Source: Rathayibacter sp. VKM Ac-2754 (lineage in GTDB: Bacteria > Actinomycetota > Actinomycetes > Actinomycetales > Microbacteriaceae). From it: a stretch of DNA of 64,000 bases. Shown here one piece after another: positions 2,695-35,532 of this stretch (positions are counted from its first letter, which is position 1; every line of letters begins with the position of its first letter). Where the stretch lies: positions 124,001-188,000 of the forward strand of contig NZ_WUCC01000004.1 in the NCBI RefSeq assembly GCF_009807095.1. The letters run 5' to 3'. A program made the position numbers and the translations under genes. Below the pieces are notes generated by a model, which made no database searches, was not told where the DNA came from, and worked only from the letters and a program-made list of their open reading frames with translations.

Positions 2695-2999
2695 GGGATC
2701 CCCTCAGCGGGGGCACAGCGCCCCCATCGCTGCCGACACTAGAGGTCGAGCGAACCGCGACGCGAGCACCTCGTGCGCCGCCCGCGCTCGGGGAGCTCGG
2801 GGAAGCGGTCGGCCCGACCGGTGCCCGAAGGGGACAGTAGTGCGGTGCTCCACTCGTGGACCGTGGACGACGGAGTGTCGCGGTCGACTGCCGATGCGCG
2901 GTCGATGACCACCCGGGACGCTCCGGTTGCGAACCCTCGACCCCAGAACCTCCGCAGGAACTCGAGAGCCGACTCGGTCGCGCTTTATCGAAGACGCCG

Positions 3000-4076
3000 T
3001 CAGTGCTGGTGCTCGTCCTCCCAGAGGGGGAACGGGTCGGGATACGTCGCCCAGGTGTCGGGGCCGGCGAGCAGCTCCTCCGAGGTGAGGAGGCACTGGT
3101 CGAGGACTCTCGTCAGCTCGTCTCGGTCGAGGTCGGTGCCGAAGAACGCGAGTTCTTGGCCGATGGGCGCGTCCGGGTCCCAGCTGCGCATGCTCGTCGG
3201 GTCGAGCGCGACGATGTCGCCGGCGATCGACCAGGATCCGACGCGGTCGGGACGGGTCGCGAGGCGCACGAGCCCTCGAGAGCGCAGGATCCGACCGACT
3301 CGCGCGGGGACGAGGTCCCTGGTGATGGCCTCGTCGAGGCGTCCGGGATGGAAGGGGAGCGGATCGCGGAACAGGTGGCTGCGAACTCGTCCGATGTCAC
3401 CGACCCGGAGGGGCGAGTTCCCGGTGAGGACCCGTTGCCATCCCAGGCTGGACGCCAGCCGGTGCGCGTGGTGCGGCGTCAGGCGAGCGGGCCGGCGGCG
3501 GTACTGCTCGAGATCGCAGGAGGCGAGGATCTCGGCTGCCGGTGCCATCGCGCGCAGCAGATCCACTGCTTCCCCTTCGCACGCTCTGCCGTCGGCGTCG
3601 GTCAGCACGATGAGGTCCGCGAACTCGATGCGGCCCGCCAGCTTCTCCGCCGCGTCGACGTCCGCCTCGGACGCGGTCGGGGTGAACGCTGCGGGCTGTC
3701 CGAGGAGGACGTGGGTCACCTCGGCGAGGGAGGTGACCGCGACGACATCGAGAATGCCGATGCGCGTGTCTGCCGGGTGGCGTCGCTCGCAGAGGTGCTC
3801 GAGGACGAGGCCCACTTCCATCGGGTCCGCGGCGGCATCCAGTGCGAGGACGGTGACGCCGGTCTCGCCGTCGTCCGCCTGCCGGGCGAGCTCGGCGGCC
3901 AACTCGCCCGCGAACGCTGCGCTGTCGGTGTCGGGGCGCTCGAGGGTCCAGTGCGTGTTCTGCGTCGTGCGACCGGCGAGAGCTGCGGCGGCCGAGGCGC
4001 TGTCGCTGCACTCGGTGGCGCTGACGAGCGTGACGGCGAGGATCGGAAGGCGGTGCGGTGTCGAGGAGGGCTCCAT
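3000..4076 (-). CDS. CobW-like (COG0523-type) protein of the zinc-limitation response, without a P-loop
   Basis: The 358-residue protein has the overall plan of a CobW/COG0523 GTPase. There is an N-terminal nucleotide-binding-like domain (residues 10-210) with the LTDAD stretch near 155. A CobW C-terminal domain (about 225-350) follows, containing GRVRSHLFRDPLPFHPGRLDEAI. The Walker A motif is missing, because the expected GxxGxGKT position reads SATECSDSASAAAALAG. In mycobacteria a CobW-related protein in the zinc-repressed alternative ribosomal protein cluster (Mrf) recruits a ribosome hibernation factor; this could be a counterpart, but that is inference. It diverges from the bL36 operon across a Zur-like palindrome, so low-zinc induction is expected. 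Confidence 0.7.
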   Translation of the reverse strand: MEPSSTPHRLPILAVTLVSATECSDSASAAAALAGRTTQNTHWTLERPDTDSAAFAGELAAELARQADDGETGVTVLALDAAADPMEVGLVLEHLCERRHPADTRIGILDVVAVTSLAEVTHVLLGQPAAFTPTASEADVDAAEKLAGRIEFADLIVLTDADGRACEGEAVDLLRAMAPAAEILASCDLEQYRRRPARLTPHHAHRLASSLGWQRVLTGNSPLRVGDIGRVRSHLFRDPLPFHPGRLDEAITRDLVPARVGRILRSRGLVRLATRPDRVGSWSIAGDIVALDPTSMRSWDPDAPIGQELAFFGTDLDRDELTRVLDQCLLTSEELLAGPDTWATYPDPFPLWEDEHQH

Positions 4077-4087
4077 GACGAGCTACT

Positions 4088-4110
4088 CTATCGAGAACCG
4101 TTCTCAATAG
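4088..4110. promoter_or_regulatory. Zur-type operator between the CobW-like gene and rpmJ2
   Basis: A 23-bp palindrome has outer arms CTAT/ATAG and a perfect inner core GAGAAC-C-GTTCTC (4093-4105). Only one outer pair and the centre are asymmetric. It lies 11 bases before the CobW-like start and 15 bases before the rpmJ2 start, so one site could block both promoters. The layout matches actinobacterial Zur boxes (TGAAAA/TTTTCA arms around a short centre), though more GC-rich. Its position in front of a zinc-free bL36 gene is the main support. Confidence 0.7.
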
Positions 4111-4125
4111 AAGCAGGAGACCCGC

Positions 4126-4248
4126 ATGAAGGTAAGGAACTCGTTGAAGTCGATGAAGAGGATGCCCGGTTCGCAGATCGTCCGACGCCGCGGCCGTGTC
4201 TTCGTGATCAACAAGCTGAACCCGCGCTTCAAGGCCCGTCAGGGCTGA
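4126..4248 (+). CDS. rpmJ: Ribosomal protein bL36, zinc-independent (C-minus) form
   Basis: A 40-residue basic protein starts [15 protein letters not shown] and ends [12 protein letters not shown], which is clearly bL36. It has no cysteine, so it lacks the zinc-binding residues of the usual form. Bacteria with both forms use the C-minus paralogue to free zinc when the metal is scarce, normally under Zur control. A good ribosome binding site (AGCAGGAG) lies between the Zur-like palindrome and the ATG. It appears to be the first gene of an operon with the permease pair downstream, although a 164-base gap follows. Confidence 0.9.
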
Positions 4249-4412
4249 CCTCGGGAACAGCGAAGGGTGCAGTCCCGAGGGGCGACGCCCTGGAGCGTCG
4301 GTGGAGCCGTCCGCCACCGGGCGGCGGGTTCCAGGTCCTCGGTCCCGTGCTCATCCGAGCGGACGTGCAGGCGACGCGTCGCTCGCCGTCCGCCCGCTTA
4401 CGATGGAGCGCG

Positions 4413-5438
4413 ATGACGATCGAGCGGGCCGCAGCCCCTGCCCGCAGCGCTCCGCGCCTCGGTCGGCGACTGGCTGCCGGGCTCGCGCTGGTCGCCGCGG
4501 CCGTGGCTCTGCGCGTCCTCGCCCCCGACTCGGCCGGTGATGCCCTGTCGGACGCGGTGCGCGACTTCCTCACGCTCTCGATCAGCGTCGTCATCGAGTC
4601 GCTGCCGTTCGTGTTCCTCGGCATCGTGCTCTCGATCGCCGTGCAGCTGTGGGTGCCCGAGGCGGTGCTCGTCAGGATCCTGCCGAAGCGCGCTCTGCCG
4701 CGGCGGCTGGTGATCTCGTTGCTCGGCGTGCTCCTCCCGGTCTGCGAGTGCGGCAACGTGCCGCTCGCGCGCGGACTGATCGTGAAGGGGCTGTCGGTCT
4801 CGGAGTCGATGACCTTCCTGCTCGCGGCGCCGATCGTGAACCCGATCACGATCATCACGACCTACCAGGCGTTCGGCTGGGCCGACGGGATCCTCGTGTG
4901 GCGCATCGTCGGCGGCTTCGTCATCGCGAACCTCGTCGGCTGGATCTTCAGCCGCCACAGCGACCCGATGGCGCTGCTGACCGACCGGTTCCGCGCGGCG
5001 TGCGAGGCGGGCGAACGGCCGTCGCGCTCCCTCCGCGACCGCTCGCGCCGCAGCGTGCTGCTCTTCGCCGAGGAGACCGGCGCGATGATGCCGGCCCTCT
5101 TCGTCGGCGCAGCGCTCGCCGGGCTCATCCAGGTCGGTGTCTCGCGAGACGTGCTGACGACTCTCGGTGGCGATCCGCTCTGGTCGGTGCTCGCGCTGAT
5201 GGTGCTCGCCTTCGTCATCTCGATCTGCTCGAACGTCGACGCGTTCTTCGTCCTCTCCTTCGGATCGACGTTCCTCCCGGGAGGCATCATCGCGTTCCTG
5301 GTGTTCGGACCCATGATCGACATCAAGATGCTCGCCCTGCTGCGCACCACCTTCTCCGTGCAGACGCTCGTGCGAGTGACGGTGCTGGTGGGCCTCGCCT
5401 CCGCGGTGCTCGGACTGGCGGTCAACCATGCGCTCTGA
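4413..5438 (+). CDS. COG0701 (YraQ/YcgR-like) permease
   Basis: A 341-residue integral membrane protein with about eight hydrophobic helices. It carries two hallmarks of the COG0701 permease family: PVCECGNVPLARG near residue 110 and the ICSNVDAFFVLSF motif in the second half. Family members pair with a TIGR03943 subunit, and that partner follows here with an 11-base overlap. The substrate is not established. The context (zinc-free bL36, Zur-like box, His-rich partner) points to a role in metal limitation, which is inference. The start is the ATG whose product begins MTIERAAAP; the open frame upstream has no coding look. Confidence 0.75.
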   Translation: MTIERAAAPARSAPRLGRRLAAGLALVAAAVALRVLAPDSAGDALSDAVRDFLTLSISVVIESLPFVFLGIVLSIAVQLWVPEAVLVRILPKRALPRRLVISLLGVLLPVCECGNVPLARGLIVKGLSVSESMTFLLAAPIVNPITIITTYQAFGWADGILVWRIVGGFVIANLVGWIFSRHSDPMALLTDRFRAACEAGERPSRSLRDRSRRSVLLFAEETGAMMPALFVGAALAGLIQVGVSRDVLTTLGGDPLWSVLALMVLAFVISICSNVDAFFVLSFGSTFLPGGIIAFLVFGPMIDIKMLALLRTTFSVQTLVRVTVLVGLASAVLGLAVNHAL

Positions 5439-6225
5439 GCGTCTGCTCACCCGGTGGAAGGGGATCGCGCTGAGCCTCATCGGCGTCGTCTCGACCCTCT
5501 GGCTCGCCGCCACCGGACGCCTCGGCCTCTACATCCACCCCCGGTACTTCGAGTTCTCGGTCGTGCTCGCGGTGCTGGCCGCGATCCTGCTGCTGCTGGC
5601 GTTCGCGATCGTGCCGGGCGCCGACGACGACGAGGATCCGCACGGAGGCGTCGAGGAGGCGGACGCCCACGGTCACCTGCACGACCACGCGCCTGGCCGG
5701 CCCTGGCGCGCGCGGCTCGCCGTCGTCGCCTCGCTCGCGATCATCGCCTCCGCCGCCGCCGCCCTGCTCGTCGTGCCGCCCTCGGCGCTCACCGCGTCCA
5801 CCGCGACGCAGCGCGAGGTGAACACGAGCGCCGTCGACTCCTCGGCCGTCGCCGCCGCGCCCACCGGAGACACCGCCGACTTCAGCGTGCGCGACTGGGC
5901 GACGCTGCTGCGGCAGGGCGCGAGCGAGCAGTTCCTGGCGGGTCGGACGGCCACCGTCAGCGGCTTCGTCACGCCCGACGCCTCCGACCCCGAGAACGTC
6001 TTCTACATCGCCCGCTTCATCGTCACCTGCTGCGCCGTGGACGCGCAGCCGGTGGGTGTGCCGATCCATCAGCCGGGCTGGGCCGACATGTACGCCGAGG
6101 GCGAGTGGCTGGAGGCGACCGGCGGGTTCGGTGCGAACCCGAGTGTCACGAGCGCCGAGACGGTCGTGCTCGAGCCAGACTCGGTCGTTCCGATCGACGA
6201 GCCGGCGATGCCCTATGTCTACTGA
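5428..6225 (+). CDS. TIGR03943/DUF1980 permease subunit (YcgQ-like)
   Basis: This 265-residue protein has two N-terminal membrane helices (about 10-30 and 42-65), a His/Asp-rich loop (residues 70-90, including DAHGHLHDHAPG), a third helix near 95-115, and an extracytoplasmic domain. The last domain holds the family motif IVTCCAVDAQPVGV (about 195-208). Its start overlaps the end of the COG0701 gene by 11 bases, and its own end overlaps the next gene by 11. This tight coupling suggests a single complex. The histidine cluster suggests metal contact, but no transported ion is known. Confidence 0.75.
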   Translation: MRSERLLTRWKGIALSLIGVVSTLWLAATGRLGLYIHPRYFEFSVVLAVLAAILLLLAFAIVPGADDDEDPHGGVEEADAHGHLHDHAPGRPWRARLAVVASLAIIASAAAALLVVPPSALTASTATQREVNTSAVDSSAVAAAPTGDTADFSVRDWATLLRQGASEQFLAGRTATVSGFVTPDASDPENVFYIARFIVTCCAVDAQPVGVPIHQPGWADMYAEGEWLEATGGFGANPSVTSAETVVLEPDSVVPIDEPAMPYVY

Positions 6226-7648
6226 CGAGGGGTCGCCGGAAGCGTCCGGTCGGGAGTACCCGGGGAAGCGGCCCGAGCGGCGCTCGCCGCGCGCGTTCGC
6301 TCGCGCCTTCTGGGGGGCGACGACCGCTCTCGTGCTGGCGGTCGGCGCGCTCACCGCCGCGACGATCGGCCAGGGCCCGAGGGTGACCGCCGTCGAGGTG
6401 AGCCGCGACGGCGTCGTCGAGCGCGACGGCGGCCGAGTCAGGATCCACCTCGACCAGTCGCTCGAGCCCGACGCCCTCGAGCGCGTGCAGGTGACCCCCG
6501 AGACACCGCACGAGGCCGAGCTCGACGGGGGCGTGCTGACCGTGACCTTCGCCGACACCCTCCGCTACGCCACCACCTACGACATCACGATCGACCGGGC
6601 GCGCGGTGTCGCGACAGGGTCTGCGGCCGACATCAGCGCCTCCTTCACGACCAAGGACCCCGACCTCTTCACCCTCGATCGAACCCCCGGTCCGGCCGAG
6701 CCGGACTCGATCCGGGTGCGCCCCCTCTCGGGAGGCGAGGCTCGCGTCGTCGCGACCGCCGACCGCATCCAGGACTACGTCGTCGTCGGCCCGGTTCTCG
6801 TGATGGCGACGCTCGAACCCGATGACACGACGCTGCTCCGCACGGTCACGCTCGACACCGGCTCGGAAGGAGTCATCCCGCTGCCCGGCCGAGGAGTCGT
6901 CCGCGAGCTGCACGCTTCCGCGGAGAAGGGCGTTCTCGGCTGGACCTTCAGCGGCGACACCCCGACCGGCCCTCTCGACCGCGCGCTCTACTCCTACGAC
7001 CTCACCGACCAGAAGGGTGAGGCGGTAGCGGTCACCGGGATCGACGGCGGGCCGCTGCGCGCTCGCGACTGGCTCGTCGTGCCGGGCACCACCTCCGCGG
7101 TCACCCACTCGCCCGACGACACCGTGCTGTTGATCGACCTGCTGGACCCCGCCTCGATCAGCCCGCTCGGGCAGCACGCCGAGCTGCGCGGCTTCGTGCC
7201 GGGAGCGAACGCTCTCGTCGTGGCCGACCCCGAGTCCGGGTCGCTGATCGACCTGGTCGACGGCTCGGTCGAGACGCTCGCGCTGCCCACCGCCGACGTG
7301 GCAGCGACTGCATCGCCGGTGCAGGTGCTGCTGCTCGATTCCGGCAGCTATCTCGAACTCGAAGCGGACTACGCGGCCGACGCGGGCACGACGCAGTACT
7401 CCGTCGTGCGCGTGGATGCGGCAGGGACGACCGAGATCTTCCGGACGTCCCCGACGGGACGCATCCGCAGCATCTGCCTCTCCCCCAACGGGCAGTTCGT
7501 CGCCGTGCAGGCGGTGTCGGAGGAGGGGGTCGCCGACGGCTACCCGGATGTGCCCGGCTTCAGCGCCACCTCGACGGTGCTGGTCGACCTCGACAGCGGC
7601 GACACGACCCGCAGCGTCAACGGGGTCTCCCGCGACTGGTGCGCCTAG
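6215..7648 (+). CDS. Membrane-anchored Ig-like and beta-propeller-like protein of the zinc module
   Basis: A 477-residue protein with a short cytoplasmic tail, one membrane helix (about 30-50) and a large external part. Residues 55-145 look like a Big_5-type Ig-like domain, ending in the ITIDRARGVATGSAADISASF stretch. The rest (about 150-475) has repeating beta blades with DPD, DLTD and LDS turns, like a six- or seven-bladed propeller. It overlaps the YcgQ-like gene by 11 bases, so it is probably the last gene of the rpmJ-led operon. A role as a surface lipoprotein-like receptor or assembly factor for the permease is a guess. Confidence 0.6.
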   Translation: MSTDEGSPEASGREYPGKRPERRSPRAFARAFWGATTALVLAVGALTAATIGQGPRVTAVEVSRDGVVERDGGRVRIHLDQSLEPDALERVQVTPETPHEAELDGGVLTVTFADTLRYATTYDITIDRARGVATGSAADISASFTTKDPDLFTLDRTPGPAEPDSIRVRPLSGGEARVVATADRIQDYVVVGPVLVMATLEPDDTTLLRTVTLDTGSEGVIPLPGRGVVRELHASAEKGVLGWTFSGDTPTGPLDRALYSYDLTDQKGEAVAVTGIDGGPLRARDWLVVPGTTSAVTHSPDDTVLLIDLLDPASISPLGQHAELRGFVPGANALVVADPESGSLIDLVDGSVETLALPTADVAATASPVQVLLLDSGSYLELEADYAADAGTTQYSVVRVDAAGTTEIFRTSPTGRIRSICLSPNGQFVAVQAVSEEGVADGYPDVPGFSATSTVLVDLDSGDTTRSVNGVSRDWCA

Positions 7649-7772
7649 GCATCGGCTGCCGGTCTCTCCTCCGGTGCGCTCTCGGGCAGCGGATGTGCTC
7701 CGCTCGGCTTCCCGGAGGGGCTCCAGGTCGTCCCGCAGGGACTCACGTCGCTGTGCCCGGCCGGAAGAGGAG

Positions 7773-8426
7773 TCAGCGCGCCCGTCCGGGCCAGGCCTCC
7801 CACACTCGGCTCCACGGCGCGGACAGCTGCCGGCCGTCCTGGTCGGTCACGTGGTGCCGACCCTCGGTGGTGCTGTGACCGCTCGTCGTGCCGAGCTCGC
7901 CGTCACCCCCGATGCGGTAGCCGACAGCGATGCCACCGTCGCCGGCGGTGATGCTCTCCTCGTAGCGGCCCCTGACGACGTCGAGGACGGTGCGCTCGAG
8001 GTCGTCCGCGAGGGCGGTCCAGTCGTCGTCGCAGGCGTCGCATCCGCAGACGGGGTACTCGAACCGGTGCAGTGCTCCGGCGTGCAGGAGGATGCCGGGG
8101 AAGACGGTGTGCACGATCGTCAGCGGTGCGGCCTCGGCAGACGCGGGGGTCAGACGGACGGCGCGGGTGGCCCAGGAGATCTCGGCTTCGTCCCTGGACG
8201 CCAGGGCCGGGTCGTCCTCGATCGTGACGTCGCAGGTTCGCACGAGGTGCTCGATCAGAGCGTCGGCGATCGTGTGGAGGGGGCGGAAGCGCTCGGTGTC
8301 GCTCGTGACGGAGTAGCTCTCGTCGGGAGGTGATCCTCCTCCCCAGCGAGTGCCGTAGGGGATGGGCCGACCGTCCTCGTCGGTGAAGACGCGGTCCTCG
8401 ACAGCGGGTCGGGCGTAGTCCGTCAT
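7773..8426 (-). CDS. DUF6226 family protein, intact copy
   Basis: A 217-residue soluble protein starting MTDYARPAVEDRVFTDEDG. It has a pair of close cysteines (CGCDACDD, near residue 145) that could bind a metal, but no other recognised motif. The family has no known function. A near-identical but frameshifted copy is at 667-1321. The start was chosen from the shared ATG, which is conserved in both copies together with the bases just upstream. The longer open frame seen upstream is not supported, because the two copies diverge there. Confidence 0.7.
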   Translation of the reverse strand: MTDYARPAVEDRVFTDEDGRPIPYGTRWGGGSPPDESYSVTSDTERFRPLHTIADALIEHLVRTCDVTIEDDPALASRDEAEISWATRAVRLTPASAEAAPLTIVHTVFPGILLHAGALHRFEYPVCGCDACDDDWTALADDLERTVLDVVRGRYEESITAGDGGIAVGYRIGGDGELGTTSGHSTTEGRHHVTDQDGRQLSAPWSRVWEAWPGRAR

Positions 8427-35377: not shown

Positions 35378-35400
35378 GCGACCGACTCTAACGCCGCTCG

Positions 35401-35429
35401 TCGAAAATGATTTCGAAAACGTTTGTCGA
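35401..35429. promoter_or_regulatory. Two overlapping palindromes, candidate LacI operators
   Basis: The first (35401-35416) has TCGAAA and TTTCGA arms around four bases. The second (35413-35429) has TCGA ends around an AAACGTTT core, which is the usual LacI/GalR operator centre. Both lie in the 155-base gap between the divergent repressor and importer genes. The first also resembles a Zur box, but the gene context favours sugar control. Confidence 0.6.
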
Positions 35430-35532
35430 TCGTCGGGCCTCAACTGAGACTGAGCGTGCCCGCCTCGGTGGGCGCACCTCCGGCGCCGCTCTCCCTGGCG
35501 GCGCCTTCTCAGCGAAGAGAACGGTTCGAACG

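Follow-up and report, generated by a model that had tools for sequence, protein, structure and literature searches.

A single Zur-like palindrome in a Rathayibacter genome appears to be the Zur operator of two divergent promoters, those of a gene for a CobW-like protein and of a gene for a cysteine-free ribosomal protein bL36, and the three genes following bL36 (a permease, its TIGR03943 partner and an Ig-like protein, together referred to as the trio) appear to form a separate unit with its own boxless promoter. We hold this explanation as a whole with reasonable confidence. The window, the whole stretch of DNA analysed, comprises 64,000 nucleotides of Rathayibacter sp. VKM Ac-2754, and all of these genes lie in it in the order given by an earlier reading made from the sequence alone (CobW_C, bL36, permease, TIGR03943, Ig-like). 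The core of the finding, one box common to a CobW-like gene and a ribosomal gene, is real, yet known in kind.

The palindrome, a candidate operator with no strand assigned, occupies positions 4088–4110 and reads CTATCGAGAAC-C-GTTCTCAATAG. It is an inverted repeat centred on C4099, with 10 of the 11 arm pairs matching, and its 13-bp core GAGAACCGTTCTC (4093–4105) is perfectly symmetrical, with the GAGAAC/GTTCTC pair that the sequence-only reading had described. Actinobacterial Zur operators are recognised by a palindrome of the GANAAnnnTTNTC type in the target promoter, and such a palindrome is found here; one flank of the site departs from TGA...TCA, having CGA instead. The scoring matrix combined the genome's own znuA box with eight published entries for actinobacteria, among which a single M. 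smegmatis box appears twice, once per strand. With this matrix, the palindrome scores 28.4, the top value in the window, where the runner-up reaches 18.7. The 17-bp form TTGAGAACNGTTCTCAA with up to three mismatches occurs once in the window, where 100 shuffles gave 0.04 on average, and the palindrome is the sole match to TNGANAACNGTTNTCNA with zero mismatches in the 3.97-Mb genome. When up to two mismatches to TNGANAACNGTTNTCNA are allowed, the whole genome contains 17 matches and the reversed control gives 11, so chance may account for a large part of the weaker ones. Likewise, the looser core GANAANNNTTNTC has seven genome matches versus four for its reversed control; the core alone is thus little proof, and the evidence lies in position and conservation. 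The block TACTCTA (TAGAGTA on the minus strand; 4084–4090, no strand assigned) is present in eight of the 13 upstream regions compared and may represent overlapping −10 elements of the divergent CobW and bL36 promoters. A scan of positions 2900–8000 found no sigma-70-type promoter, and promoter assignments are therefore based on conservation.

The genome also contains zur itself and boxes other than the palindrome, as would be expected of a Zur operator in actinobacteria. The single zur gene (L018 5252–5680, Pfam FUR) is the last gene of a znuA-znuC-znuB-zur operon (Pfam ZnuA, ABC-3 and FUR), and the box TATTGATAACGATTGTCAAAA, located about 60 bp upstream of znuA, resembles the palindrome. The search for further copies, which had been proposed together with that for zur, yielded the znuA box and a candidate at C19:741, but no second copy of the zero-mismatch TNGANAACNGTTNTCNA form.

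The CobW-like protein is encoded on the minus strand (3000–4076), and its sole Pfam match is to the CobW C-terminal domain (PF07683). The NCBIfam models NF047431 and NF038288 match it far under their cut-offs (64.1 bits versus 375 bits for NF047431), and it is therefore named MRF-like here rather than filed as MRF. Neither Walker A nor CxCC was found in any of the 13 CobW-like reading frames examined, which come from the window, ten other genomes with CobW homologues, Herbiconiux solani (L148) and Leucobacter (L140). A CobW C-terminal domain without Walker A is the mark of Rv0106/MRF-like COG0523 proteins, and Rv0106 is described as lacking Walker A and CXCC in the relevant passages of Haas et al. 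(PMC2770081). The ribosomal gene (4126–4248, plus strand) encodes a type B bL36 (PF00444), with zero cysteines and a score of 79.4 bits against the 70-bit cut-off of NF002021, which agrees with the earlier statement that this form lacks zinc ligands. A second bL36 copy, at C2:140125, has a C-C-C-H pattern, which we take to be zinc ligands.

A CobW homologue is present in 11 of the 37 genomes searched. All 11 have a Zur-like palindrome, scoring 16–34, between this homologue and a divergent cysteine-free bL36 gene; the arms vary by species with the symmetry mostly kept, G006 and G013 being examples of asymmetry at one core pair. The presence of one Zur-like box between two divergent zinc-sparing genes is thereby supported. 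Taken with the matrix score and the matching znuA box, this recurrence bears out the Zur-like operator of the sequence-only reading, and the palindrome is very probably, as judged from sequence, the Zur operator of the CobW-like/bL36 pair.

A similar arrangement occurs in M. smegmatis, where the sites listed for rpmB (MSMEG_6068) and MRF (MSMEG_6069) in PMC7174638 are mutual reverse complements and so represent one shared box, placed between the CobW-like MRF and a zinc-free ribosomal operon. The ribosomal arm there comprises rpmB, rpmG, rpsN and rpsR, whereas here it is a lone bL36, and no permease trio is mentioned beside rpmB/MRF in the parts of that paper dealing with these genes. In C. 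glutamicum, as far as the sections of PMC2823685 on cg0794/cg0795 describe it, a COG0523 gene is likewise paired with another Zur target, but with two sites and an oxidoreductase as the partner. The Zur regulons predicted in the same source for actinobacteria, including Leifsonia xyli, contain ribosomal paralogues, with RpmJ among them, as bL36 is here; COG0701, however, is absent from the text. The present locus indicates that Rathayibacter, too, has a Zur box placed between genes for an MRF-like CobW protein and a zinc-free ribosomal protein, the ribosomal arm being bL36.

The trio begins with an ArsP_1-family (COG0701-type) permease (4413–5438, plus strand; PF03773, E 1e-57, 196 bits versus a cut-off of 32.3), whose PVCECGN motif is found in 42 of 42 aligned permeases. 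Its scores against the NCBIfam equivalogs for SO_0444 Cu/Zn efflux and SaoE efflux (71.4 of 300 and 65.1 of 325 bits) do not place it in either. The adjoining gene (5428–6225, plus strand) encodes the TIGR03943/DUF1980 partner (147 bits, cut-off 88.8), the neighbour that defines the permease pair; the protein has a CC motif and a His-rich loop (13.1% His versus 0.9% elsewhere), and the AlphaFold model (mean pLDDT 81.5) predicts a β domain at the C-terminus. The third gene (6215–7648, plus strand) encodes an Ig-like protein with a Big_5 match under the Pfam cut-off, which is presumably located in the membrane, judging by eye from an N-terminal hydrophobic stretch. TIGR03943 was found in 22 of 60 genomes, and 22 loci fetched from 21 such genomes make, with the window, a set of 23 in which the three genes are always together (23/23). 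A GTDB scan returned 288 relatives; among the best 80 of them, which represent the nearest relatives only and come partly from the same genomes as the other set, the permease is present in 80 of 80 loci and an Ig-like match in 78, and the Ig-like gene lies upstream of TIGR03943 in only four.

Several lineages link the trio to zinc. Among the best 80 of the 288 relatives, 15 loci have a homologue of Zur, Znu, CobW or bL36 no further than 3.5 kb from the trio; in two of these (Arthrobacter L084 and L094) bL36 is the sole sign of zinc, and the L084 bL36 frame contains a stop. In the 1.5 kb preceding the permease, nine of the same 80 loci have a box scoring at least 20 and eight have the strict motif TGANAANNNTTNTCA, which occurs 11 times over all 80 loci compared with none for its reversed form. 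The motif is found 72 times in 37 whole genomes versus four times when reversed, and its background of about 0.5 per Mb (some 135 Mb summed) corresponds to about 0.06 occurrences expected in the 115,440 upstream bases. Within 350 bp upstream of the permease, exact matches to the 13-bp core number five versus none reversed, but matches with one mismatch three versus three. On a tree of 88 permeases, 20 of which carry the zinc-linked label, the label must change at least 13 times (starred branches force eight) versus a mean of 18.2 for shuffled labels; the zinc link is therefore partly inherited and loci of the same lineage are not independent, and the tree has long branches, L062, L136 and L056 among them. 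A Zur-like box adjoins the trio's own promoter-like element in G035, G028 and Leucobacter L140, one box is common to the trio and a divergent znuA in L082, L117 and L118, and in G036 the trio follows zur on the same strand. This recurrent linkage supports a place for the permease pair in zinc biology, and the trio probably acts as a transport system in zinc homeostasis, as far as gene neighbourhoods and boxes indicate. The comparison thus provides evidence for a pair without an assigned function in zinc homeostasis, at least in several lineages, and names the lineages in which the link is open to direct testing.

Coupling of Zur-controlled zinc-sparing genes to this permease pair had been regarded as non-standard, a claim weakened by a report on B. 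anthracis (PMC6336718). According to the relevant parts of that report, EMSA showed binding of Zur to the stretch separating an ArsP_1-family permease operon (BAS1632) from yciC (BAS1633), so that a Zur-bound region is common to such an operon and a COG0523 gene; unlike the present case, the organism is a Firmicute, there are two Zur boxes, and no ribosomal protein gene lies between. A TIGR03943 gene after the permease is not mentioned in those parts.

In the window, bL36 and the permease are on the same strand and are separated by 164 bp containing hairpins and a promoter-like block, but no other gene; it is thus not clear that they form the single operon proposed earlier. The block CTTACGATGG (4397–4406, plus strand) is a putative −10 element of the permease operon, assigned by conservation in the genus. 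It has no Zur box, and C[CT]TACGATGG lies within 20 nt upstream of the approximate permease start in 11 of the 13 copies of the genus; it is missing in G009 and in one copy from G011, which has two, and a contig end truncates a fourteenth copy (L060). The hairpin region downstream of bL36 (4249–4300, plus strand) has a best single hairpin of −19.1 kcal/mol. The seven Rathayibacter whose CobW homologues are close have −27.8 to −38.2 kcal/mol, and another four loci (G018, G010, G011 and H. solani) have hairpins of −11.4 to −19.8 kcal/mol. The interval from bL36 to the permease yielded no T-rich terminator, so co-transcription, by read-through from bL36 into the trio, is possible. The trio adjoins a CobW-bL36 pair in two of the 23 loci, the window and that of Rathayibacter sp. 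Leaf185 (G007), and is absent within the 12–13 kb fetched around nine other such pairs.

In Leaf185, the interval between bL36 and the permease contains a hairpin of −30.2 kcal/mol and two genes on the opposite strand (L058 3167–3874), encoding a small protein rich in His and an SmtB-like member of the ArsR family. Positions 4320–4396 of the window (plus strand) align to the 5′ end of the Leaf185 smtB gene and the smtB–permease spacer beside the permease, the rest being missing; the best match to smtB in the source genome is 35% identical, and a search of the genome, run without a positive control, found no homologue of the His-rich gene. The closeness of bL36 and the trio in the window therefore looks derived, the simplest reading being that smtB and the His-rich gene were lost. 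Five further Rathayibacter loci have an smtB homologue (88–90% identical) beside CobW-bL36, and three have a homologue of the His-rich gene there. The claim that the palindrome switches both arms of the module thus has support for CobW and bL36; against its extension to the trio stand the 21 of 23 loci in which the trio lies away from the pair, its own block and the two Leaf185 genes apparently lost from the window. Control of the trio by the palindrome is on balance doubtful; the trio appears to have its own promoter and would be at best partly switched with CobW and bL36.

With ample zinc, Zn-loaded Zur would occupy the palindrome and block both divergent promoters; when zinc is low, Zur would leave, and the MRF-like CobW_C protein and the zinc-free bL36 would be made, the latter standing in for the zinc-binding copy. 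Transcription of the trio would start at the boxless promoter near 4400, and the palindrome would reach it only by read-through from bL36 past the weak hairpin. The CGA flank of the palindrome, the two of 13 genus copies without the permease block, and the 65 of the best 80 loci that lack a zinc gene up to 3.5 kb from the trio count against this explanation. It is unlikely that the palindrome controls all five genes, with bL36, permease, TIGR03943 and Ig-like genes forming one Zur-repressed operon. The common strand, the gene-free gap, a hairpin weaker than in seven relatives and the missing T-rich terminator are consistent with such an operon, as are the boxes of the trio in other lineages (its own, shared with znuA, or a place after zur), but the conserved block, the strong hairpin and opposite-strand genes of Leaf185, and the nine CobW-bL36 pairs with no trio nearby speak against it. 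That the palindrome is bound by a different regulator, such as the Fur paralogue encoded beside a catalase gene, or that the repeat arose by chance, is very improbable. Fur-family boxes are alike and the genome has two Fur-family genes; the one other than zur, however, adjoins a catalase gene, whereas the neighbours of the palindrome are of zinc-sparing kinds and a similar motif precedes znuA, and chance would hardly place a repeat between this one pair of genes in all 11 genomes with a CobW homologue.

A further reading is compatible with the preferred explanation of two divergent Zur-controlled promoters and a separate trio: the trio may be a zinc efflux or stress system, under a divergent SmtB-like repressor in Leaf185, with the Zur links reflecting activation or clustering rather than starvation-induced uptake. 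We consider this unlikely. In its favour are the ArsR-family gene (HTH_5) divergent from the Leaf185 permease, whose C-terminal D-x-H...H-x-x-E spacing we take to match the SmtB/CzrA α5 zinc site, and the permease matches to Cu/Zn-efflux and SaoE models, far under cut-off as they are. The B. anthracis boxes point the same way, being placed upstream of a predicted −35, and the authors suggest activation of the permease in the section concerned (PMC6336718). However, five other Rathayibacter have an smtB homologue with CobW-bL36 and no trio in the stretch, and the boxes of G035, G028 and Leucobacter sit next to promoter-like elements, where a repressor would be expected to bind. A broader proposal, which we regard as rather unlikely, treats the trio as an uncharacterised system for zinc transport in Microbacteriaceae and their kin and supposes that its control was rewired more than once, through a Zur box of its own, one in common with znuA, a position behind zur or a place next to CobW-bL36; loss of the SmtB-like and His-rich genes would have put the trio of the window behind the Zur-controlled bL36 promoter, and zinc shortage would raise it by read-through.

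Other sites and transporters were noted along the way. At 35399–35431 of the window, the genes for a LacI-family regulator and a solute-binding protein flank two overlapping box-like sites with scores of 15.7 and 18.7, which are more likely the operator of this regulator than a Zur box. In four Rathayibacter (L190–L193), a second ABC transporter with ZnuA/ZnuB-like subunits (25–30% identity) and its own Zur-like box adjoins the CobW-bL36 pair. The candidate on C19 of the source genome is a third Zur-like box, TAGTGATAATCCTTATCGTTA (G000:C19:741–753; L220, L217), with a score of 21.4, located about 50 bp upstream of an operon encoding an ABC ATPase, an MFS protein, a family-5 solute-binding protein and a fused permease, which presumably resembles opine-metallophore import/export loci.
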